DNA of 64,000 nucleotides, from assembly GCF_008000815.1 (NCBI RefSeq), contig NZ_CP042806.1, forward strand, positions 3,534,001 to 3,598,000. Direction: 5' to 3'. The DNA comes from Terriglobus albidus. GTDB taxonomy: Bacteria > Acidobacteriota > Terriglobia > Terriglobales > Acidobacteriaceae. Below the pieces are notes generated by a model. The model made no database searches. It saw nothing but the letters and a program-made list of their open reading frames with translations, and was not told the DNA's origin. The translations under genes were made by a program, and so were the position numbers. Shown piece by piece: positions 19,605 through 30,751 of this stretch (within the stretch, counting starts at the first letter, position 1; each line of letters begins with the position of its first letter).

Positions 19605-20642
19605 CTAAACGCCGGCGTCGTTCAAGGGCTGATAATTGAGAGAGCAAACACAGCGTCTGCAGATCTCGTTCTCATCGACCTTCAGGCCGGACCGGAACTC
19701 AGAGGCGCTATCGCCGTGCAAGATGTCTTCCAGCGTCCCGTGTGCCAGGTTGCCGATGGGCTGGTGGAAGAAACAGGGTTTCACGGTTCCGTCGACCTCC
19801 CACACCGCCGAGACCCAGGGAGCATTGCATACCGGAGCTCGATGTGGAACCAGGCCAGCTTCTGCCGCAAAGTGGTCTGTAATGCGTTGGAGTTTCTTCC
19901 GGTTCTCTGCGATCGAAAATGCCGGGGCAAGCCGCTCCCGCGCTTCCGCGATGAGGTCGAATTGCCGGTTGAGGGTCTCGAGCTCGGTAGCATCTACCTG
20001 AACCGCACTGCGTCGTTCGATGGGCCACACCAGCTCCCGGTTGAAGGCGGTGGACGAAAGATCCGCGGCGAGGAAAGAGATGCCATCCAGCCCGGCATCG
20101 AGCGCGGCGTCTACGGTGGCGGCTAGATGAGCGAAGTTAGCGTGTTGTACGGTGCACCGTGCTCTGACCGGAAGCGCGCTTTGCCGCTTGAGTGCATGGA
20201 CGCCGCGAGAGAGCAGTGCAAAGGCTCCTTTGACACCGCGGATCTGATCGTGAACCTCGGGAGGTCCATCGAGAGAGACGATAACTTCGTGGAATTCCGC
20301 GGTGACTAGAGCAGCATGCTTCTCCAGCAGAAGCCCGCTGGTCAGCAGGGTCAGGGTTGCTCCTATCTCACGGAAGAAGTGCGTGAGTTCCGGCAGCTTT
20401 CGATGCATCAGCGCTTCACCACCGGTGAAGACGACCTGCTCCACACCCAGCGAGAGCAGCGACTCACGCTGACGTTCCAGAACAGAGATATCGAGCTCCT
20501 GGTTCTCCTCGCGTTTCCAGATGTCGCACATCGCGCAGCGGCAGTTGCACCGGCTGTGCACGTGCAGCAGAAGGATCGGCATCCGCGTGATGCGATGCTC
20601 CTGGAGTTGCGTTGTCTCCGCGATGGCTGTTGTGTCAGGCAA
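19605..20642 (-). CDS. Radical SAM protein with SPASM-type C-terminal cluster domain
   Basis: 345 residues, last gene of the eight-gene minus operon. The radical SAM [4Fe-4S] motif is CNCRCAMC with C32, C36 and C39; the SAM-binding GGE follows (FTGGEALMH). Auxiliary-cluster cysteines appear late: PVCNAPW, VKPCFFHQPIGN and ICRRCVCSLNY. This twitch/SPASM arrangement is found in peptide-modifying, dehydrogenating and MoaA-like enzymes. The TTG start overlaps the end of the preceding gene by 8 nt, with AAGGA 9 nt upstream; ATG at 20582 is the alternative. No precursor-peptide gene was seen nearby, so the substrate is open. Confidence 0.88.
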   Translation of the reverse strand: MPDTTAIAETTQLQEHRITRMPILLLHVHSRCNCRCAMCDIWKREENQELDISVLERQRESLLSLGVEQVVFTGGEALMHRKLPELTHFFREIGATLTLLTSGLLLEKHAALVTAEFHEVIVSLDGPPEVHDQIRGVKGAFALLSRGVHALKRQSALPVRARCTVQHANFAHLAATVDAALDAGLDGISFLAADLSSTAFNRELVWPIERRSAVQVDATELETLNRQFDLIAEARERLAPAFSIAENRKKLQRITDHFAAEAGLVPHRAPVCNAPWVSAVWEVDGTVKPCFFHQPIGNLAHGTLEDILHGDSASEFRSGLKVDENEICRRCVCSLNYQPLNDAGV

Positions 20643-22524
20643 GAGCCACCGTCCTTTCTCCCAGGCGGATCACGCCGTGCTGCTGCAGCACGGCGGCTGC
20701 TTCAAATGTCGCTCGAAGATCTCCGCGGATCCAGCGTCGCCGGCCATCGACCTGTATCTCCGTGAAGCCGACAAGCTCCTGTGGTTGAAGCATTTGTGCG
20801 AGTTCTTCCGCAACAAGCTGGACGATGCCATTTCGCATCACGAAGTGGACGTCCTGCCATGTCACGCGCCGAAGCGTTTCCGCCGGTGAAAGGCCACGGT
20901 CGGGTACCGCGATCAGATCGGCTCGGCCGTCAATCCTAATCTTCCCCTGACCGTCTGTCAGTCGCAACATGGTTGCCGGATTCTCCGTGAGCATGGAGTA
21001 GAGTCGCGCCGCCGGGAGATCGTAACGCGACATAACGAAGGCACCTTCATCCAGCAAATCACCACAAGCGGTAAGCGGAGAATCGCTTCCAAGTGCAGCA
21101 TTCTCAAAGTGCTCCAGAAGTGCAGCGGCTGGAATCGTTCCGAAGAGAAACTCATTGGAACTGGGGCAGAAGATTAAACTGACACCCGCTTCGTTGAGCC
21201 TTGTGATCATCTGTGGCGTAACAGCAAGTGCATGAACAAGAATGGTGGAAGGACGCAACAGACCTAACGCCTGCAACATTTCAATCTCTTGTTTTGCGCG
21301 CGCGCTAACTCCCTCCGCCGCGTGTACGATCAGAATCTCTCCAGAATCGATCGATGATTCTTCCTGAAGTCCCTCGAAATCGAATGCTGCGGAGTGTACC
21401 CAGCGCATCTCTTCCACGACGCTGACTGGAAATTCAGGATCTCGCATGATGTCTGTGATCGGATTGTGATGACAGGCTGTTGTCACACCGCACAGCAGAT
21501 TCCTCAGCGCTCCCCAGCGAACACGGATCTCTCGCGGAACACTGCGGTGTAGTGCAATGGTCTCGGCATAACGCGCGTGAATTGCGGTGGCCCATTCCTG
21601 AGCATCGGTATAGCTACCGTCTCCCAAACGCGGAAAGAGGCCAAACTCCAGATGGTCATGCGCATTAATCAGACCGGGGAGAACGAGATATCCGCCCAGG
21701 GAAATCTGCGTCATCGCCTCGGGCGAGCTATCCAGGATGGAGCGTATCCGTCCTCCCTCGACGGTAAGTGTGCGTGGCAACGCATCATATGCCGATAGCG
21801 CACACTGCGCTCCAGTGATTGCGAATTCCGTCTGGGGTGCCTCTCGAACAAGCTGAAGCAGATACATCACTGGTTCTTCGGGAAGCTCTTCGAAGGAATG
21901 AGCCCGACCTTGCTGTACAAAGATTTCTCGCTCCGCTTCGGAAAATCCAGGTTCCAGGTGGCATACGCAATGGAACCCTTCGGATGTAAAGATTGCCCTC
22001 AGCTTTTCTAAACCAATCTGGTTCCAGGCAATCGCTATCTCTTCATTCTGCTGATGGAAAGAACGATTCCAGCCGCGTCGCTGTGCCGTGTTGGGATGAA
22101 TGTCTGCCAGGATGATCTGGCCTCCCGGCCGGAGTAACCGCCGCATCTCGCTGCAGAAGGACGCAAGATCGCTCACATATCCCAGAACAAGGGAACAAAG
22201 AACAACATCGACGGACTGTGCGGAGATAGGAGTTGCAATGCAGTCTGCATGGTAAAGCGTCGCGTTGCTTGGGAGCCGTTGTCTCGCCAGCTCCAGCATC
22301 TGGGCGGAGTAATCTACAGCGTGAATCCACTCCGGTTGCAGAGTACTTAAAAGGGAAAAGTGTCTCCCAGTCCCGCAGCCGGCATCGAGAATGGTCTTTC
22401 CCCGCAATGTAGGCAGAAGCTGACGAAGCAGCCTTGCCTCCAGCGAGCAGAAGGGATTGCAGGTCTCGTCATAGACCGGCGCCCACTCATCAAACACTTC
22501 GGGAGTTGCCGGAGCCGCGATCAT
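20635..22524 (-). CDS. Fusion of class I SAM methyltransferase and amidohydrolase (cytosine deaminase-like)
   Basis: 629 residues with two enzymatic halves. Residues 1-230 are a UbiE-like methyltransferase with motif I LDAGCGTG (46-53) and a post-motif LRPGGQIILADIHP (131-144). Residues 235-629 are a COG0402-type metal-dependent amidohydrolase: HDH at 289-291, His401 in LIVHAAEG, His431 in ILVHALAV and the catalytic-type Asp481 in ALGSDSPLTACGD. This looks like a deaminase or hydrolase of an N-heterocycle or amidine, joined to a methyltransferase. The ATG overlaps the upstream stop (ATGA). Fusion is seen directly; the substrate is unknown. Confidence 0.88.
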   Translation of the reverse strand: MIAAPATPEVFDEWAPVYDETCNPFCSLEARLLRQLLPTLRGKTILDAGCGTGRHFSLLSTLQPEWIHAVDYSAQMLELARQRLPSNATLYHADCIATPISAQSVDVVLCSLVLGYVSDLASFCSEMRRLLRPGGQIILADIHPNTAQRRGWNRSFHQQNEEIAIAWNQIGLEKLRAIFTSEGFHCVCHLEPGFSEAEREIFVQQGRAHSFEELPEEPVMYLLQLVREAPQTEFAITGAQCALSAYDALPRTLTVEGGRIRSILDSSPEAMTQISLGGYLVLPGLINAHDHLEFGLFPRLGDGSYTDAQEWATAIHARYAETIALHRSVPREIRVRWGALRNLLCGVTTACHHNPITDIMRDPEFPVSVVEEMRWVHSAAFDFEGLQEESSIDSGEILIVHAAEGVSARAKQEIEMLQALGLLRPSTILVHALAVTPQMITRLNEAGVSLIFCPSSNEFLFGTIPAAALLEHFENAALGSDSPLTACGDLLDEGAFVMSRYDLPAARLYSMLTENPATMLRLTDGQGKIRIDGRADLIAVPDRGLSPAETLRRVTWQDVHFVMRNGIVQLVAEELAQMLQPQELVGFTEIQVDGRRRWIRGDLRATFEAAAVLQQHGVIRLGERTVALA

Positions 22525-23984
22525 AGGCTTTCACGCTTGGGTTTCCTGAGATCAATGAACCGCTGCGCCAGTACCAGTTCGTGAGGGGCAGTATAGAAAC
22601 GGAAGGTATAACGCCATGCGCTAAGTGTTTGGAGCAGGTAACGTCCCCACCGTGGGGCGCGGATGTCCTGCACCGTGGGCCAGCGTGAAGCGACAACGAT
22701 CTCGAAATTGTCGATCAGTCGTTTGGTCTTGTCTTTCATCCACGGAGCGCGGGTATCGATGCGGAGGGTGAAGTCCATCCATTTCTTCTCGGCCCATTCT
22801 CCCGGGCTGGTCGGGAAGCTGATCTTGTCGTCAACGTCGCCATACATCGAACCGCGCTGCGGAGTCGGCGTGTAGTGCTGGATGATGATCTCCGAATCTG
22901 GGTTGATGCGCTTGATCTTGCGGATGAACGCCAGCGTCTCGCGGGTATCGCGCTCGGGATCCTTTGGGTTGCCGACAACGAAAGAGAACTCAGGAATGAT
23001 GCCGGCCTCGCGTGTCCGGCGCGCCATGATCAGCGTCTGCTCAGTGGTGATGCCTTTCTGCATCTCTTTCAGAGCCCAGTCTGAACCGGACTCGGCGCCG
23101 AAGAAGATCATCGTGCATCCGGCACGCCGGATGGCCTGCATGGTCTCGTCGCTGTAGCGGGACATGATATCGACGCGCGCCTCGCACCACCAGCGCAGCT
23201 TCAATGGGGCAATACGGTCCATGAGTTCCCGGGCGTGGTCTTCGCTCAGGAAGAAGTTCATGTCGTAGAACTGCACGGAGTCGGCGTTATAGCGTTCGAC
23301 CAGATGACGCAGAATCGCTTCAGTACGCTCCGGAGATTCGAACTTTTCGGTTCTACCGTATGCTGCATGCACGCCACAGAAGCTGCAGTTAAAGGGGCAG
23401 CCAATGCTGGCGTGGTGCACTGCGGTGCGTTTGCCAAAGAACGACGGGCGAAGATATTTCTCGACGGGAAGCCGGTGGAAGGGAGACCACGGAAAGGCGT
23501 CCGGTCCCTTCATCGGGCGTTCCGCGTTATTGCGATGGAAGCCGAACTGGTCCTTGTACGAGAGCCCAAGGATGCTTTCGAAGGTGCGCTCTCCGCGAAG
23601 CGCTTCCAGCAGTTCGAGCAACGTGTCCTCTCCCTGTCCGCGAACCGCGAAGTCGATGTACTTCGCATTGAGCGTCGCTTCCGGATAAATAGAAGGGAAG
23701 TAGCCTCCCCAGACGATCGGAACGTGAGGACGAAGTTTACGGATCTCGCGGCAGACCTCCATGCCGGCAGCCATCTGCGGCCCGGGCATCACTGAGACGC
23801 CGAGCAGTTCCACGCGATGCTTGTCGATCAAGCCGAGGAGTGTGCCCAATGGGTCATCATCGACATTGCCGTCGACGATCTCATACTCCTCACGGTCTTC
23901 CAGCACGGCTGCCAGAGCAAGCACGGCGAGAGGGAGCCGTCGGCTTCGAGGTTTTACGGCACGGGGATGAAAGAGGAGAATCAC
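22521..23984 (-). CDS. B12-binding-domain radical SAM protein (paralogue f)
   Basis: 487 residues from a GTG start at 23984 that overlaps the previous stop (GTGA) and is preceded by GGGGAGG. An N-terminal Rossmann-like cobalamin-binding domain (ILLFHPRAV, LAVLALAAVLED, IVWGGYFPSIYP, VRGQGEDTLLELL) precedes the radical SAM core with IGCPFNCSFC. The C-terminal third (IIIQHYTPTPQRGSMYG) is the family extension. It is most like the paralogues at 27681-29243 and 29237-30751. The canonical DxHxxG cobalamin-ligand motif is absent. Expected chemistry for COG1032 enzymes is C-methylation or radical rearrangement; the substrate is unknown. Confidence 0.88.
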   Translation of the reverse strand: MILLFHPRAVKPRSRRLPLAVLALAAVLEDREEYEIVDGNVDDDPLGTLLGLIDKHRVELLGVSVMPGPQMAAGMEVCREIRKLRPHVPIVWGGYFPSIYPEATLNAKYIDFAVRGQGEDTLLELLEALRGERTFESILGLSYKDQFGFHRNNAERPMKGPDAFPWSPFHRLPVEKYLRPSFFGKRTAVHHASIGCPFNCSFCGVHAAYGRTEKFESPERTEAILRHLVERYNADSVQFYDMNFFLSEDHARELMDRIAPLKLRWWCEARVDIMSRYSDETMQAIRRAGCTMIFFGAESGSDWALKEMQKGITTEQTLIMARRTREAGIIPEFSFVVGNPKDPERDTRETLAFIRKIKRINPDSEIIIQHYTPTPQRGSMYGDVDDKISFPTSPGEWAEKKWMDFTLRIDTRAPWMKDKTKRLIDNFEIVVASRWPTVQDIRAPRWGRYLLQTLSAWRYTFRFYTAPHELVLAQRFIDLRKPKRESL

Positions 23985-24787
23985 ACAGCCTCCCCGCTCT
24001 TCTCGAAGTGCAACAGCATGTGATCTCCAAGGACGCGCAGCAGTGGCAACCGGGAAAACACGGCATCGAGCCGGACAAACATCCGTAGCAGAAGTGGATG
24101 TTTCTGTATCCAAGCTTCCGCGTATGACGGTGGCACAAAAAGGCCGATCGCCCGCACCCGCCGGAGCCTGAAGTGTGGCAGGAATGCTGTACGAAGCGTG
24201 TTCAGGGTGGGGTAATAGACATCCACCGGCATCCCCTGCAGCATCGCCTCATGTCTCCCGCTCCAACGGCGGAAGGCCTTTGCGGGATTGCCATGCAGCA
24301 AATACCAGGCGGTCTCCCAGAGACAGATACGTGTCGACAAGCAGAGAAGCAGCGGAGAGTCCGGTGAGGTTTTCTCCGCCAGTATGCGAGCTACCGGAGC
24401 GAGATCGCGGACGCAATTGAGACCTGAGAAGTTCGAGAATACCCCGTCGAACTCACCAGCAATCTCTCTCAGGTCTTCTGTGGCTACTTGCCGGAACTGC
24501 GGGTTCTCCTTCGTTCCTGCGGTCTCCCGCCTTACCCGGGCGCAGGCAATCATCCGCTCCGATGCGTCCAGAGCTAACACTTTCCAGCCATTTTCTGCAA
24601 AACGCAGAGCGTCTTCGCCAGTACCGCAGTTCAGTTCCAGAAGCCTCCTGCGGCCATGCAAGATGCGGAACGCATCTTGCATGACGACAGACCGCTGCGC
24701 CCGCCCGATGTGGCTTTGCGTGAAGTCATCGTCATACGTGTCGGCCATCGCATCGAAAGCCTGTCCCGCTGGGTGCGTCGCAATCAT
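23981..24787 (-). CDS. Class I SAM-dependent methyltransferase
   Basis: 268 residues. The start at 24787 overlaps the upstream stop (ATGA). The N-terminal AFDAMADTYDDDFTQSHIGRAQR resembles the cap of UbiE/BioC-type methyltransferases. Motif I is LLELNCGTGEDALRFA; motif II region KVLALDASERMI; then VATEDLREIAGEFDGVFSNFSGLNC. The C-terminal part (about 175-268) is long, with an extended hydrophobic/basic segment (RMFVRLDAVFSRLPLLRVLGDHMLLHF), which could suit a lipophilic substrate or membrane contact. It sits between two B12-type radical SAM genes. O-, N- or C-methylation cannot be told apart from sequence. Confidence 0.88.
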   Translation of the reverse strand: MIATHPAGQAFDAMADTYDDDFTQSHIGRAQRSVVMQDAFRILHGRRRLLELNCGTGEDALRFAENGWKVLALDASERMIACARVRRETAGTKENPQFRQVATEDLREIAGEFDGVFSNFSGLNCVRDLAPVARILAEKTSPDSPLLLCLSTRICLWETAWYLLHGNPAKAFRRWSGRHEAMLQGMPVDVYYPTLNTLRTAFLPHFRLRRVRAIGLFVPPSYAEAWIQKHPLLLRMFVRLDAVFSRLPLLRVLGDHMLLHFEKSGEAV

Positions 24788-26181
24788 GCCTCTACCTCTG
24801 CGGCCGCATCCATCAGGCCGGTGCGGGCATTGCGTATCTCTTCCGCCAGGCGGCTGACCTCCTGTTCGTCCGGTACATTGACGCCACGCATCCGGGCGAG
24901 AGCGACCTCGCTGCGCAGCAGCTTGTCGGCGAAGCTGTAGTAGCGGCGCGAATGGCGGCCGCGAATCTTGATCTCCCGGTCGGAGCTCGTGCCCCACGGT
25001 GCAAGCTGAATCAGGTCGTTCTGGATCTTCTTGTAGTACGGCGTTCCTTTGATCGGATAGGACACGGTTGTAAAGAAGATGTCCGGCTGAGTCCGGCTGA
25101 CGTGCTGGATGGTGGCTTCGATATCTTCAAGTTCTTCGCCGTCGTAGCCCCACATCAGGAACATTCCGCTCTCGATGCCGCGGGTCTTGCTCAGCTCCAC
25201 GGCGCGCTGCACCTGGTCCAGCTTTACGCCGCGCTGCATGGAATCAAGAATGCGCTGTGACCCGCTCTCTGATCCGATCCAGACGCGGAAGCAGCCCAAC
25301 TCCGCGAGCAGGTCCATCGCCTCTTCGTTCAAACGGTCGGCCCGTGAGATGCACTCAAATGGAATGCGAAGACCACGACGCTTCATCTCGGCTGCGTAGG
25401 TACGCAACCAGGTGTGGTTGATGGTGAAGACGTCGTCCGAGACCCACACCATGTCAGGCTGGTACTCCGAGAGCAGCCACTCCACCTCATCTACCACTAG
25501 CAGCGGATCGCGACGGCGATGGGTGTTGCCATAGACCTGATGGCTGCACCACTGGCAGCGATAGGCGCATCCGCGTGCGGTGATGAAGTTGACGGAGCCT
25601 TTGCCGTGGTGTGTACGCCATGTATCGACGTACTTCTGGATGTTCACCATCTTGCGCGCAGGCCATGGCTGGTCGTCCAGGCATTTGATCTGTGCCCGCG
25701 GCGCGGTCTGACGAAGCTCTCCGTCTTCGAGGTAGGCCAAGCCATCGATCTTGCCGACCTGATCGAGCCCGCCTGAGCGGATGGCAGTCATCAGCTCTTC
25801 CAGCGTCAGTTCGCCTTCGCCCAGGACGACAAACTCCGCACCCGCATCCAGATACTCTTTGGCGTATGCCCCAGGCTCCGGACCTCCGACGATCGTCCGC
25901 CATCCAGCCTCGCGTGCGATTCGAAGCAGCTCCACGATGTTGCTGCGAGTCATCAGATTGGCATAGAGGCCCAGCGTTGATGGTGTTCCGGTCTGCAGGC
26001 GCTCGATCAGGGCTGCCTTGGACGAAAAAGTCGTATCGAAGACCTCGACGTCGAAGCCCTTTGCCTGCAGATGCGAACACAGATAAAGAATGCCCAGCGG
26101 GGCATAGGGCTTCATAATCTGCAGCTCTTTCGGGTCCTCGTAAAGGAAGTAGCCGTGGGCCAGCAACAGGTCAGGAGTCAT
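24784..26181 (-). CDS. B12-binding-domain radical SAM protein (paralogue d)
   Basis: 465 residues. The cobalamin-binding-like domain starts PDLLLAHGYFLYEDPKEL and PYAPLGILYLCSHLQAKGFDVEVFDTT; radical SAM cysteines are in ARGCAYRCQWC (about residues 195-205). Later landmarks are VWVSDDVFTIN, IGSESGSQRILD and SYPIKGTPYYKK. It is a close paralogue of the gene upstream (26178-27665), with matching openings ending in PYAPLG and a shared VFDTT strand. The start overlaps the upstream stop by 4 nt. DxHxxG is absent. Substrate unknown. Confidence 0.88.
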   Translation of the reverse strand: MTPDLLLAHGYFLYEDPKELQIMKPYAPLGILYLCSHLQAKGFDVEVFDTTFSSKAALIERLQTGTPSTLGLYANLMTRSNIVELLRIAREAGWRTIVGGPEPGAYAKEYLDAGAEFVVLGEGELTLEELMTAIRSGGLDQVGKIDGLAYLEDGELRQTAPRAQIKCLDDQPWPARKMVNIQKYVDTWRTHHGKGSVNFITARGCAYRCQWCSHQVYGNTHRRRDPLLVVDEVEWLLSEYQPDMVWVSDDVFTINHTWLRTYAAEMKRRGLRIPFECISRADRLNEEAMDLLAELGCFRVWIGSESGSQRILDSMQRGVKLDQVQRAVELSKTRGIESGMFLMWGYDGEELEDIEATIQHVSRTQPDIFFTTVSYPIKGTPYYKKIQNDLIQLAPWGTSSDREIKIRGRHSRRYYSFADKLLRSEVALARMRGVNVPDEQEVSRLAEEIRNARTGLMDAAAEVEA

Positions 26182-27665
26182 ACGGCGCCTCCAGCAGGTG
26201 TAAGTGCATGCAGCGGTAGAAAACTCGCTGAATCCTTACCGGAGCGTGGCTGCAGCACATGTTCCACGTCTCTCCGCTCCCGTGGCTCAAGAGTGGCAAT
26301 CTCTTCCCACATGGCATGTACCTCCCGCTCATTGGCCGAACCGCTCTTCCATCCATTGACTTCCAAATGCAGCGCATCGCGAATCGTGCGATAGAAGTTG
26401 TCGGAATACGCTCCGGAGAACATAACGCAGAGATCGTCGCTGTCCTTCCAGTTACGCTTTGCCGCGAGCTCGGCCTGAACGCGCTCATAGAAGACCGTTC
26501 CGGGCAGGGGATATGAGATGCTGACACCGATGTCATCCGGGCGCGTCGCCCGAACCAGTGCAAGTGTTTCCAGCAGCTCCTGCCATCCCTCCCCGGGATA
26601 TCCCAGCTGCAGGAAGAAACATGCCTTGATGCCCGCAGCGCCCAGATGGGTCCTTGCCGCGACTACATCCGAGACATGAAGACGTTTGTCCATCGCATCG
26701 AGAACTTTCTGCGATCCCGACTCGACGCCCATCCAGACCTCGTCACATCCGCTTTCAGCCAGCAGGGCGACAACGTCCTCCCGCAGGAGGTCGGCTCTTG
26801 CCTGAATCTTGTAAGGAATGACGGCATCGTAGGTGCGTACCCACTGGGCGAAGTCTTGCAGCCAGTGCCGGTTGAGGGCAAAGATATCGTCGCTGAACCA
26901 GATGTGTTCGGCACCATGATGCTGCTTCAAATCACGCAGCTCCCGTGCGACATCAGAGGCGGGACGAAGCTGATACTTGTTGCCGGAGATTGGCTTCGCG
27001 CACCAGTTGCAGGAGTAGGGGCAACCCCGGCTGGCGACGACATTCGCAGAGAAGCGCCCATGAGCGTCGGTCCAGGCATTGCGGTAGAGGCTCATGTCGA
27101 TGAGGTCACGCGCCGGCGGCGGCATCTTCGACCAGTCGGTGTTACGAACTGGGTTGCTACCGCTGCGATGAAGCGAACCCGCCGTATCCTTCCAGATCAA
27201 GCCTGGGATTTCAGATGGATCCTGGCCTGCAAGGATGGCCCGGCACAACTCCGTGAGCGTGTTCTCTGCCTCTCCCGTCAGGATGTAATCCACGCCGGCC
27301 TTCAGGTACTCTTCCGCGAAGTCAGTCTCGTCGGAACCATGTGCGACGACGACCGCTCCTGCAGCCTTACCCAATCGTGCGATCTGCTGTGCTGTCTGGC
27401 GCATCGAGAGTAGGCACATCTTAGAGAGAAAGTTGAAGTCATCCTCGTAAATAACTACAACTTTTGGAGTTTCCCGCCGAAGCGTAGCCTTCATGCCGTG
27501 GAGCGGATCCTGCAATGTCGTGTCGAAGACCTTGACCGAGACGCTGGACTCTCGCAGCGCCGCGGCAGCGTAGAGGGTGCCCAGCGGGGCATAGGGCTGC
27601 ATCTTCCGTAGTTGCTTCGGATCGTTCGCCAGGTGATAGGAGTGAGTAAGAAGGATGTCTGTCAT
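26178..27665 (-). CDS. B12-binding-domain radical SAM protein (paralogue c)
   Basis: 495 residues. The N-terminal domain (DILLTHSYHLANDPKQL, MQPYAPLGTLYAAAAL, VKVFDTTLQDP) is followed by the radical SAM core with ASRGCPYSCNWC (about 215-226), WFSDDIFALN, VWMGVESGSQKVLD and SISYPLPGTVFYERV. It starts 15 nt after the end of the preceding gene and overlaps the next by 4 nt. It pairs with paralogue d as a tandem duplication. The DxHxxG cobalamin-ligand motif is not found; several COG1032 enzymes are known without it. No substrate can be assigned. Confidence 0.88.
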   Translation of the reverse strand: MTDILLTHSYHLANDPKQLRKMQPYAPLGTLYAAAALRESSVSVKVFDTTLQDPLHGMKATLRRETPKVVVIYEDDFNFLSKMCLLSMRQTAQQIARLGKAAGAVVVAHGSDETDFAEEYLKAGVDYILTGEAENTLTELCRAILAGQDPSEIPGLIWKDTAGSLHRSGSNPVRNTDWSKMPPPARDLIDMSLYRNAWTDAHGRFSANVVASRGCPYSCNWCAKPISGNKYQLRPASDVARELRDLKQHHGAEHIWFSDDIFALNRHWLQDFAQWVRTYDAVIPYKIQARADLLREDVVALLAESGCDEVWMGVESGSQKVLDAMDKRLHVSDVVAARTHLGAAGIKACFFLQLGYPGEGWQELLETLALVRATRPDDIGVSISYPLPGTVFYERVQAELAAKRNWKDSDDLCVMFSGAYSDNFYRTIRDALHLEVNGWKSGSANEREVHAMWEEIATLEPRERRDVEHVLQPRSGKDSASFLPLHALTPAGGAV

Positions 27666-27680
27666 CGTGGGGACTCCGTG

Positions 27681-29243
27681 CTAACACGCGGCTGCCTGGT
27701 CAGGAAGTTCCTGACCGGTCACCAACGATCTGCGGGATGCAAGTGGTCCAGAAAGTCTGGAGGCCCAGAGCTCCCAGGGAAAGCCGTAGTGGCTGGAGCG
27801 GACACGCCAGCTTACGGTGTGTTTGAACAACTGGCGAAGAACAGCTGTCTTCAGAGGCTCCTTTTCGTGCCGGCGGTGAACCTGGCCGTTCAGCAGGAAG
27901 TACTCCGTCATCCGTTTCAGGCGTTCCAGCTCCTCTCCCCGTAGCCATGGCAGGGCATTGACGCTGAGCGGCAGCTTGATCCACTCCTCCAGCGTCTGAG
28001 GTTCTTGCACTCCTAGCTCGCGAAGCTGTGGCCAGATGGGAATGCCGGGGTAGGGAGTAAACAGATTTGGGGAAAACTGGACGTTGTTATACCGTTCCAC
28101 GATGTCGCTCATTGTCTGGAAAGTAAGTACCCTGTCTTCTTCGGTTTCCCCGGGATATCCGAAGATGAGGTTGAAGTTGATCTTGATGCCGGAGACGTGT
28201 GCTTTGCGTGCCGTCTCGTACATCTCGTCCACGCGCTGGTGGCGCTTGTTCATCAGCTTCAGCACGCGCTGCGAGGTTGACTCAGTACCGAAGCCCATCA
28301 CCTTTACGCCGCTGTCGGCAAGAAGTTGTACTTCGTCCTGGGTCATTCGGCAGAGGAAATCGGTTGAAGCCTGGAAGGTCCACTGGAAGCGAACTCCGGA
28401 GTTGACGATCCCGCGTGCGATCGCGAGAGCTCGTTTTACGTCCACGGGAAAGTTCGAGTCGAGCAGAGCGACCTCGTCGATCCGGTACATGCGAACCAGA
28501 TCGACGAGTTCGCCCACCACCCGGTCCGCATCGTAGGCGTTGAAGCGTCGCCGGTACACCACCATGTCAGTGCAGTAGTTGCATGCGTAAGGACATCCCA
28601 CGCTGGTGGCGTAGGCCAGCTTGCGATGTCCATTGAGCGGCTCATAGGCGTCGAAGTCCGCCAGGTCGTAGGCGGGGGGCGCGAAGGTGCCGATGGGAGC
28701 GACGGTGCGCTCGGGATTCTCGATGATCTCGCCGTCTTGCTTCCAGTGGATGCCAGCGATGGGGCCAACCGAATTGCCTTGGGAGAAAGCTTGGGCGAGC
28801 TCCAGCATGGTCAGCTCTCCCTGTCCGCGCACCACTACATCGATGTAGGGTTCGCGAACCGTCTGTGCCGGCTCCAGTGAGGGATGCCACCCGCCAAAGA
28901 CCACCGGAAGCTCGGGGCGAGATGCCTTCAGCGCCTTTGCTGCTGCGATAGCCCCACGGATCATTGGTCCGGTCAGAACAGAGATCCCAACGCAGACGGC
29001 GTCGGCGCTCTCCGCCACGATGCGCTGCAGGTAGTCCTTGTGAATGCAGGCGTCGATGATGCTGACCCTGAAGCCCGCGTCACGCAGAACTCCGGCGAGC
29101 GCCAGAAGGCAGAGCGGGGCCCCGAGCGGCGGACCGTCATAGGGCGGATAGAACAACACCACCTTGTTTCGGCCGGGCGATGGCCGTGGTGAACCGTGCG
29201 CCGGAGCCGGCCGGATGGCGCTGGCTGGCAGCACGTTCAGCAT
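27681..29243 (-). CDS. B12-binding-domain radical SAM protein (paralogue b)
   Basis: 520 residues. After a Pro/Ala-rich leader of about 25 residues the cobalamin-binding-like domain begins (NKVVLFYPPYDGPPLGAPL, VSIIDACIHKD, ISVLTGPMIRGA, VVFGGWHPSLEP, VVRGQGELTMLEL). The radical SAM cluster motif is TSVGCPYACNYC, followed by IDEVALLDSNF, MGFGTESTSQRVL and NLIFGYPGETEEDR. It is strongly similar to the neighbouring upstream paralogue, and both end with the residues AAAC. The ATG overlaps the upstream gene by 7 nt. DxHxxG is absent. Substrate unknown. Confidence 0.88.
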   Translation of the reverse strand: MLNVLPASAIRPAPAHGSPRPSPGRNKVVLFYPPYDGPPLGAPLCLLALAGVLRDAGFRVSIIDACIHKDYLQRIVAESADAVCVGISVLTGPMIRGAIAAAKALKASRPELPVVFGGWHPSLEPAQTVREPYIDVVVRGQGELTMLELAQAFSQGNSVGPIAGIHWKQDGEIIENPERTVAPIGTFAPPAYDLADFDAYEPLNGHRKLAYATSVGCPYACNYCTDMVVYRRRFNAYDADRVVGELVDLVRMYRIDEVALLDSNFPVDVKRALAIARGIVNSGVRFQWTFQASTDFLCRMTQDEVQLLADSGVKVMGFGTESTSQRVLKLMNKRHQRVDEMYETARKAHVSGIKINFNLIFGYPGETEEDRVLTFQTMSDIVERYNNVQFSPNLFTPYPGIPIWPQLRELGVQEPQTLEEWIKLPLSVNALPWLRGEELERLKRMTEYFLLNGQVHRRHEKEPLKTAVLRQLFKHTVSWRVRSSHYGFPWELWASRLSGPLASRRSLVTGQELPDQAAAC

Positions 29244-30751
29244 GCCGCTGCCTCCGCTGGGGTGCGCGCAAGCCGCTTGGCATCCACAGCCGGTTTTCCT
29301 TTGGGAATCCGCTTCTTCAGCTTGTTGTTCAGCCAGATGTCGACCGGGAAGCGATACGCATCGTGATCCAAACGCCAGCGGGCTGGGAAGGAGATGGCCT
29401 TCTGGGCGAGCCGGATGATCGGCGGACGTGTGTCGGCGGCGATGGGGATGCGATTGAAGGCCAGTCGCAGGTACTCACGGGTATCTTGAAGCCGCTTATG
29501 GTCCTCACCCTTCAGCCAGGGAAGTTCAGTGTAACGGGGGAAGAAGTCCGCCCAGCCTTCCAGCGTGGTCGGCGGCTCAATGCCAATCTCAGCGGTGCGC
29601 TTGAAGATCGGCGAGCCTGGGTAAGGCGTAAAAATGTTCGTCCAGAACTCTGCGCCTGGAAACTTGCGGCAGACATCGAGCATGAACTCGACGGTCTCGC
29701 GTCGCTCCTTTGGTCCTTCGCCGGGGAAGGCGAAGATGATATTGAAGGAGGGGCGAATGCCGGCCTCCAGGCAACGCGCTGCGCTCTCGTAGATGGATTC
29801 GAAGTCCTGGAAGTCTTTATTCATCGCCTTCAGGATCGTCGGCGATCCTGAATCGACACCCTGGCATACCTGCCTCAATCCAGCCCGGCGCAGCAAACGC
29901 ATATCTTCCAACGACAGCCTTGCCACAAGATTCGTCGTTGCCTGGATGCTCCAGGTGTAGTGCGAGTTCTCGCGAACCAGGCCCTCGGCGATTCCCCGTG
30001 CCCGGTCAAGATCGACGAGGAAGTTGTCGTCGACTACCCAAAGCATCTCCAGCTCATAGCGCCGGCTTAGATCGACGGTCTCCTCGACAAACTGTTCAGG
30101 GGGGAGGGCATTCCATTTCCTTCCGTAGACGCCGCCATTGGTGCAGTAGGCGCAGTTGAAGGGGCAGGCAAGGCTGGAGGTGTACATTGCCCATCTCCGG
30201 CCACAGGAGCGTTCGTAGGCATCGAAGTCGGCCAGGTGATAGGCCTTCGGCGGCATCTCTACGAGGGGGCGCAGCGGCCTCTCCGGCGTAAAGATGATGC
30301 GGCCGTCGCGCTTGAACCCAATGCCTGCGATGAGGTCGGGAGCCGATCCGCTGCTGAGGTGCTGCACGAGCTCAAGCATCGCGTCCTCGCCCTGCCCACG
30401 GACGACGTAGTCCACGCACGCAGCCTCGAGCGTTTGCTGCGGCAGCAGTGACGGATGCCATCCGCCCAGGACGATGGGGAAGTCAGGCTTCCACTCTTTC
30501 ACAGCCCTGGCAATCGCAACTGTCTCCCGGATCATCGGTCCGGTGACGAGGGAAACAGCCAGGCAGAGGGCGTCCTTTACCTCTTCGAGAACCCGTTTCT
30601 GGAAGTCCGGCGTGATGGTCGAATCGACCAGACATATCTGATAGCCGGCTCGTTCCAGCGGTGTCGAAACGGCAAGAATACCTAACGGCGCCGTCGCTTC
30701 CGTACTGGCGAACGACGGGAAGAAGAAGACGATTTTGCGTGAGCGTGCCAG
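29237..30751 (-). CDS. B12-binding-domain radical SAM protein (paralogue a), first gene of operon, probable CTG start
   Basis: 504 residues if started at CTG 30751, which lies 9 nt after ACGAGG. The first in-frame ATG (30535) would remove most of the cobalamin-binding domain. The extra 72 codons read ARSRKIVFFFPSFASTE, then APLGILAVSTPLERAGY, then CLVDSTITPDF, aligning well with paralogue b. Landmarks: SLVTGPMIRET, IVLGGWHPSLLP, VVRGQGEDAMLEL, cluster motif SSLACPFNCAYC, LWVVDDNFLVD, IIFAFPGEGPKER. An in-frame TGA at 30776-30778 bounds the extension. The protein ends in AAAC like its neighbour. A palindrome upstream (30791-30803) is a likely operator. Confidence 0.85.
   Translation of the reverse strand: MARSRKIVFFFPSFASTEATAPLGILAVSTPLERAGYQICLVDSTITPDFQKRVLEEVKDALCLAVSLVTGPMIRETVAIARAVKEWKPDFPIVLGGWHPSLLPQQTLEAACVDYVVRGQGEDAMLELVQHLSSGSAPDLIAGIGFKRDGRIIFTPERPLRPLVEMPPKAYHLADFDAYERSCGRRWAMYTSSLACPFNCAYCTNGGVYGRKWNALPPEQFVEETVDLSRRYELEMLWVVDDNFLVDLDRARGIAEGLVRENSHYTWSIQATTNLVARLSLEDMRLLRRAGLRQVCQGVDSGSPTILKAMNKDFQDFESIYESAARCLEAGIRPSFNIIFAFPGEGPKERRETVEFMLDVCRKFPGAEFWTNIFTPYPGSPIFKRTAEIGIEPPTTLEGWADFFPRYTELPWLKGEDHKRLQDTREYLRLAFNRIPIAADTRPPIIRLAQKAISFPARWRLDHDAYRFPVDIWLNNKLKKRIPKGKPAVDAKRLARTPAEAAAC

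Follow-up and report, generated by a model that had tools for sequence, protein, structure and literature searches.

A conserved operon of radical S-adenosylmethionine enzymes in Acidobacteriota is linked to exopolysaccharide genes

The window analyzed here, a 64,000-nucleotide stretch of the Terriglobus albidus genome (positions 3,534,001 to 3,598,000 of contig NZ_CP042806.1), contains an operon of eight minus-strand genes, A to H, at window positions 19605-30751. We found strong support for regarding this operon as a conserved biosynthetic unit, not a chance run of genes, and we observed that it is linked to exopolysaccharide genes, a link that is new here. We put at about even the chance that its enzymes use radical chemistry to modify a polar and probably nitrogenous unit whose final place is on, or together with, a polysaccharide of the cell surface. 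The eight genes, most of which encode radical S-adenosylmethionine (SAM) proteins, some with a cobalamin (B12)-binding domain, are:

30751-29237, minus strand: gene A, B12-binding and radical SAM protein, 504 amino acids, putative CTG start
29243-27681, minus strand: gene B, B12-binding and radical SAM protein, 520 amino acids, paralog of A (about 39%)
27665-26178, minus strand: gene C, radical SAM protein with a weak B12-like domain and an AprD4-like fold, 495 amino acids
26181-24784, minus strand: gene D, B12-binding and radical SAM protein, 465 amino acids, paralog of C (about 33%)
24787-23981, minus strand: gene E, class I SAM-dependent methyltransferase, 268 amino acids
23984-22521, minus strand: gene F, B12-binding and radical SAM protein, 487 amino acids, GTG start
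22524-20635, minus strand: gene G, methyltransferase (Gmt) fused to a COG0402-type amidohydrolase (Gah)
20642-19605, minus strand: gene H, SPASM radical SAM protein, 345 amino acids, TTG start

Among 61 genomes (60 relatives and the window's own, G000, a single contig of 6.4 Mb), six have convincing homologs of gene G: G000, G008, G012, G015, G033 and, for the amidohydrolase half only, G006. The entire gene order is present in the neighborhoods from G008, G012 (where gene A lies at a contig edge, in two frames) and G033, and the end of the cassette is on a short contig in G015. A contig scan with the amidohydrolase alignment found 386 relatives, 80 of which were analyzed; with the window, G033 and G006 these make 83 loci, L027, L028 and L029 being counted once with G012, G015 and G008. 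L029, from Terriglobus albidus DSM 26559, has this eight-gene operon as well. They comprise 66 loci of full type and 17 of a reduced RibA type, where full type means any locus without a UGT-like gene and includes three without a detected Gmt (L039, L086 and L099). The genes A, C, D, E, F, Gmt, Gah and H are all on one strand in 35 of the 66 full-type loci, a neighborhood result that strongly supports the biosynthetic system of the original prediction. This count and those of individual genes in the full type are lower bounds, as many contigs end inside the cluster: F was found in at least 61 loci, H in 55, C in 44 and B in 26, with neither F nor H in L086 and L099. Gmt and Gah are fused in 23 full-type loci and separate in 40. 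Orthologs of gene A are 60-99% identical, except in L104 (32%). An additional methyltransferase gene, ZnMT, is present in 43 of the 66 full-type loci, usually between E and F; the window and its nearest relatives lack it. Its product (L024:13469-14440 and 42 other full-type loci) is a class I methyltransferase with, by eye, an N-terminal zinc-ribbon-like cysteine pattern.

The cassette occurs in several Acidobacteriota families, and draft genomes from Planctomycetota and Pseudomonadota supply a small number of further relatives. Of 396 Acidobacteriota genomes 27 match, each with a single Gah match (E ≤ 1e-40); outside this phylum the gene is rare (counting the center genome in each case, 3 of 246 genomes from the phylum of L105 and 1 of 321 from the class of L106), and plasmid homologs are remote matches only, with less than 60% identity. 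The distant locus L115 retains H, C, A, D, E, F, Gmt and Gah, and L114 retains Gah, H, D, C and a Gmt-like gene. Against conservation as a unit, the set thins far from the window: L113 has Gah and one radical SAM gene in the fetched stretch, L111 has Gah alone, and L112 is without any gene matching the references. Relatives outside the window's family were located by the amidohydrolase only, the fetched flanks vary in length between loci, and several distant loci come from metagenome-assembled genomes, where binning can err.

The open reading frames, with gene A re-read and the starts of E and F examined, agree with the predicted arrangement of eight co-directional genes with short overlaps: A and B overlap by 7 nucleotides, B and C are separated by a 15-nucleotide gap, the C/D, D/E, E/F and F/G junctions are 4-nucleotide overlaps, and G and H overlap by 8 nucleotides. 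The frame of gene A is open from a CTG at 30751, and we infer that this is the start codon because no ATG, GTG or TTG in the frame covers the entire B12 domain and because the G033 ortholog starts within one residue of it. The sequence GAGG occurs nine bases upstream of this apparent start (gene A, window 29237-30751). Pfam searches also confirmed the class I methyltransferase, the methyltransferase-amidohydrolase fusion (Methyltransf_11, 74.1 bits; Amidohydro_1, 65.1 bits) and the SPASM protein (40.8 bits in gene H).

The original prediction counted five B12-type radical SAM proteins, of which four are secure. All six radical SAM proteins (A, B, C, D, F and H) exceed the Pfam gathering score for the Radical_SAM domain. 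For the B12-binding domain the gathering score is 32.1 bits, with B (81.1), F (66.7), D (51.7) and A (38.9, obtained without the first 72 residues) above it and C (28.9) below. In A, B, D and F the B12-binding domain is accompanied by a CxxxCxxC core, domain order and motif are the same as in the BchE/HpnJ/PhpK/TsrM/OxsB group, and from these features the four are putative methylases that would bind cobalamin and transfer methyl groups. The CxxxCxxC motif is present in 272 of 273 orthologs of A, B, C, D, F and H at least 400 amino acids long (300 for H), the sole exception being A in L094. No cassette protein reached a curated radical SAM cut-off among the matches listed, and those of the BchE group were missed widely. 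For BchE (TIGR02026, cut-off 481.35) the scores were 151.3 for D, 128.2 for B, 108.7 for A (read from 30535), 103.3 for F and 78.1 for C. Gene C scored 110.7 against AprD4 (NF033070, cut-off 500), but its nearest fold is nevertheless AprD4, and it is a divergent, AprD4-like member of the set. The closest solved relative of gene H is BlsE. AprD4, a radical SAM 1,2-diol dehydratase of aminoglycoside biosynthesis, acts on an aminoglycoside and BlsE on a sugar nucleoside. Diol dehydration by C is putative, and unlike AprD4, C has no AprD3-type partner that we noticed in the operon. Partial viperin and mad2 matches from PADLOC, covering four of the eight proteins (G, H, F and E), were set aside as general radical SAM and methyltransferase similarity.

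The same scores bear on the suggestion, made in the original prediction as its main alternative, that the operon serves a membrane lipid. Serial radical C-methylation of a hopanoid, ether or tetraether lipid would be in keeping with weak matches to the families of HpnJ, HpnR and a ladderane-type lipid B12 radical SAM enzyme, but the best scores are far under the cut-offs: 105.6 (F) of 577.6 for HpnJ (TIGR03471), 93.7 (B) of 650 for HpnR (TIGR04367) and 112.3 (D) of 360 for the ladderane type (TIGR04072). We therefore rejected a hopanoid or ladderane function. PMC5462960 reports hpnP and hpnR as absent from the acidobacterial genomes it examined, except Koribacter, and its table includes Edaphobacter aggregans, KBS 89, TAA166 and Silvibacterium bohemicum, which carry a cluster. 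Hopanoids are thus disfavored as the product, a result that does not weaken the case for all lipids: E. aggregans, which carries the cluster at L056, makes branched glycerol dialkyl glycerol tetraethers under oxygen limitation, according to PMC8941075. The deaminase, kinase and nucleotidyltransferase described below have no obvious fit with a lipid, and we consider a lipid product quite improbable.

The COG0402 metal site is intact in Gah, the amidohydrolase half of G: its residues H73, H75, H185, E188, H215 and D265 (HxH, HxxE, H and D) are invariant in 71 of 71 sequences. Its HxH, H and D regions align to 4dyk, 4gbd, 3lnp and 4f0r, and the asparagine of its CPxSN motif is also present in known deaminases. 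Its nearest folds are TM0936, an S-adenosylhomocysteine (SAH) deaminase, and the 5'-methylthioadenosine (MTA), SAH and adenosine deaminases, rather than Vcz. Gah has the active-site residues of COG0402 deaminases, but identity to the known ones (TM0936, 4gbd, 4f0r) is only 17-23% among the leading matches, so the substrate is not readable from homology, and unlike them Gah is fused to a methyltransferase in the 23 loci mentioned above. The original prediction took the deaminase-like half as a hint at a nitrogen heterocycle or amidine; fold and intact site would fit a nitrogen heterocycle, and would fit a by-product deaminase equally. Gah might instead clear 5'-deoxyadenosine and SAH and so prevent self-inhibition of the pathway, a role that would be compatible with any product and is a rival for the function of G only. 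PMC6079011 describes 5'-deoxyadenosine as an inhibitor of radical SAM enzymes that needs disposal, but Gah is retained in the reduced type, where C is the only radical SAM gene found, and we regard this role as possible, with the odds somewhat against it.

The marker of the link to exopolysaccharide genes is a nucleotidyltransferase of Pfam family PF14907 (NTase). Taking the Gah and NTase searches as covering the same 396 Acidobacteriota genomes, NTase is present in 19 of the 27 Gah-positive genomes versus 11 of the 369 Gah-negative ones (Fisher test, P = 8e-19). Inside the window's family the counts are 17 of 17 versus 8 of 27 (P = 1.6e-6), the 44 family genomes listed being taken as complete; kinship enters these tests only through the within-family split. 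NTase is likewise present in all six Gah-bearing genomes of the 61-genome set and in 3 of the other 55. In 14 of the 17 family genomes, less than 25 kb separates the start of NTase from that of Gah, and the fetched flanks of the RibA-type loci contain an HprK-like kinase gene in 17 of 17 cases and NTase in 15.

In the window's genome, NTase and HprK are located at 3.819-3.828 Mb and are followed, up to 3.834 Mb, by Wza-, Wzz- and Wzx-type proteins. Pfam supports the NTase, Poly_export/SLBB (60.7 bits, cut-off 28), Wzz (36.6 of 25.5) and a Polysacc_synt_3 flippase (41.4 of 23), the last three being domains of Wzx/Wzy exopolysaccharide loci, as is the Wzy_C of G151; the HprK-like kinase is under the Pfam cut-off in the copies scanned (29.8 of 33.3). 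In G413, HprK comes directly after the full cluster and is followed by NTase and Wza. About 11 kb (GT87-like, RibA and ABC transporter genes) separates the cluster in G151 from HprK, NTase, Wza, Wzz, Wzx and a Wzy_C ligase, and in ZG23-2 the cluster converges on WecG-, GT4-, Wzx-, Wzz- and Wza-like genes. By eye, G033 has more polysaccharide genes about 13 kb past H, and beyond the Acidobacteriaceae the loci L104, L105, L106 and L115 have flippase, glycosyltransferase, ABC, GNAT or PIG-L neighbors. Homologs of a GT87 protein are present in seven of nine cassette genomes versus none of five others tested, and its gene is divergent beside gene A in G151 and ZG23-2. This GT87 protein is a membrane protein of 700 amino acids with a PD40 part in the L026 copy (L026:6515-8626; G000:C1:5824419-5826476).

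By eye, the NTase region of the window's genome also contains response regulator, histidine kinase, and porin-, cupredoxin- and cytochrome c-like genes. The redox labels lack Pfam support in this genome, the cytochrome being under the cut-off and the cupredoxin without a match; of the porins, one has no match and one only a match under the cut-off. Small cytochrome c, cupredoxin and porin genes with a two-component system recur in L128 (G000:C1:3814500-3834000), L133, L134, L135 and L025, and among the redox genes scanned only the L134 (G413) cupredoxin passed its Pfam cut-off. Loci of the Wzx/Wzy kind do not usually carry genes for B12 radical SAM proteins, a deaminase or putative periplasmic redox proteins.

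Several observations weigh against a tie between the operon and exopolysaccharide. The window's operon is not adjacent to the exopolysaccharide locus, its distance to NTase being 273 kb (G000); this distance is 3.16 Mb in G394, and in G008 NTase is on another contig. Eight Gah-positive genomes, all outside the family, have no NTase at the threshold used, and 11 genomes have NTase without Gah; for two of the eight, L114 and L115, an NTase-like frame was seen by eye beside the cluster. The full-type flanks, which mostly end near gene A, show HprK in only 14 and NTase in only 5 of 66 loci. The WecG, WcaJ, GT4 and two-component labels rest on inspection by eye and BLAST, not on Pfam, and the putative redox genes in the partner locus would be superfluous for a plain glycan role.

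All 17 RibA-type loci contain C, E, ZnMT and Gah together with a UGT-like glycosyltransferase gene, and none of A, B, D, F and H was found in their fetched stretches. Fifteen of them have a dedicated GTP cyclohydrolase II (RibA), the L026 copy of which matches TIGR00505 above its threshold. In a quick-search, midpoint-rooted tree with support from the Shimodaira-Hasegawa-like approximate likelihood ratio test (SH-aLRT) only, 16 RibA-type sequences (of the 17 loci) and L039, which has C, ZnMT, Gah and H, grouped inside the clade of fused full-type sequences, and from this grouping the reduced type looks derived from the full type. Together with ZnMT and the exopolysaccharide link, this reduced type goes beyond the original prediction. 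RibA was rejected as a genome-wide marker: all 14 genomes tested, Gah-negative ones among them, have a homolog outside any cluster, which also weighs against the reading of the operon that we put forward.

A further candidate product is a secreted nucleoside- or pterin-like small molecule, for which the exopolysaccharide locus would merely be a frequent neighbor. RibA or a housekeeping GTP cyclohydrolase II would give a 2-aminopyrimidinone, Gah would deaminate it, and the radical SAM enzymes and methyltransferases would decorate it. We think this unlikely: the window's operon is without RibA, Gah has the nearest folds given above and not that of Vcz, and NTase is linked to the operon in 14 of the 17 family genomes.

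The reading that we put forward, tailoring of a polar unit for a surface polysaccharide, draws on gene content, synteny, intact motifs, the co-occurrence and linkage of NTase, and the export genes beside NTase in the loci inspected. From these we infer the individual reactions. A to D, F and H and the methyltransferases would carry out successive C-methylation, dehydration or rearrangement, and O- or N-methylation on a small polar scaffold, presumably a single common one modified stepwise, as the original prediction had it. The amidohydrolase half of G would remove an amino group from this scaffold or from a by-product. The partner locus would supply the HprK-like kinase, the PF14907 nucleotidyltransferase, the GT87 transferase and Wzx/Wzy/Wzz/Wza-type export proteins, and the finished unit would serve the surface polysaccharide. 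A nitrogen heterocycle or a nucleoside-like sugar is the favored scaffold, because of the deaminase half, the RibA of the reduced type, and AprD4 and BlsE as relatives of C and H. The kinase and nucleotidyltransferase would attach the unit via a phosphodiester, a link suggested by analogy because such a pair phosphoglycosylates a lasso peptide: in PMC8498205, the kinase phosphorylates the peptide and the nucleotidyltransferase then adds a hexose.

The likeness to pseudomycoidin-type phosphoglycosylated lasso peptides, whose HprK-like kinase and nucleotidyltransferase are of the kinds that also accompany the cassette, raises the question of a ribosomally synthesized and post-translationally modified peptide (RiPP) as product. 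The lasso peptide nucleotidyltransferase also belongs to PF14907. SPASM and B12 radical SAM proteins, like the kinase and nucleotidyltransferase, are RiPP tailoring types, and gene F matches TIGR03975 under its cut-off (103.2 of 281.85). Unlike in the lasso peptide systems, though, the kinase, itself below its Pfam cut-off, and the NTase sit with polysaccharide-export genes. No RiPP family cut-off was reached among the matches listed. When 6749 short frames near clusters were grouped, none of the 14 largest groups looked like a precursor family, in an automated screen by which short or divergent precursors may go unnoticed. We give a RiPP only a slim chance. A GTP-derived, multiply C-methylated, possibly redox-active heterocycle, tethered to exported polysaccharide by a phosphodiester that the kinase and nucleotidyltransferase would make, and working with the putative cytochrome c, cupredoxin and porin of that locus as a polysaccharide-bound redox cofactor, is a still more speculative elaboration, and we hold it to be highly improbable.

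In keeping with the original prediction, we found no described cluster with this set of genes in the open-access literature searched, paywalled work and preprints being outside the search. Singly the proteins belong to known superfamilies, but as a set they stand apart from the curated radical SAM families in the matches listed. As many as six radical SAM enzymes, whose chemistry is hard to predict, are brought together in one operon, which is also found in culturable relatives. Full and reduced clusters form a natural contrast and exopolysaccharide is the predicted place of action, which together make the product findable.

In the window, Rfam at gathering scores gave two tRNAs only, with no cobalamin riboswitch, and it had no hits in seven relatives. 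Counts from promoter and terminator scans were close to the shuffled background. Between the cassette and the exopolysaccharide genes of ZG23-2 there is a type III polyketide synthase gene (L030:12685-15879; Pfam chalcone/stilbene synthase), in a stretch that by eye also has genes for a methyltransferase and a flavin adenine dinucleotide (FAD) oxidoreductase. A transposase- or integrase-like gene (L135:10208-11614) was recognized by eye in the exopolysaccharide module of G394, where 3.16 Mb separates NTase from the cassette. NTase homologs also occur within frames of 1378-1386 amino acids in genomes with no cassette (G002:C1:2590140, G013:C1:1232662 and G011:C1:1372342), possibly as a fused relative.

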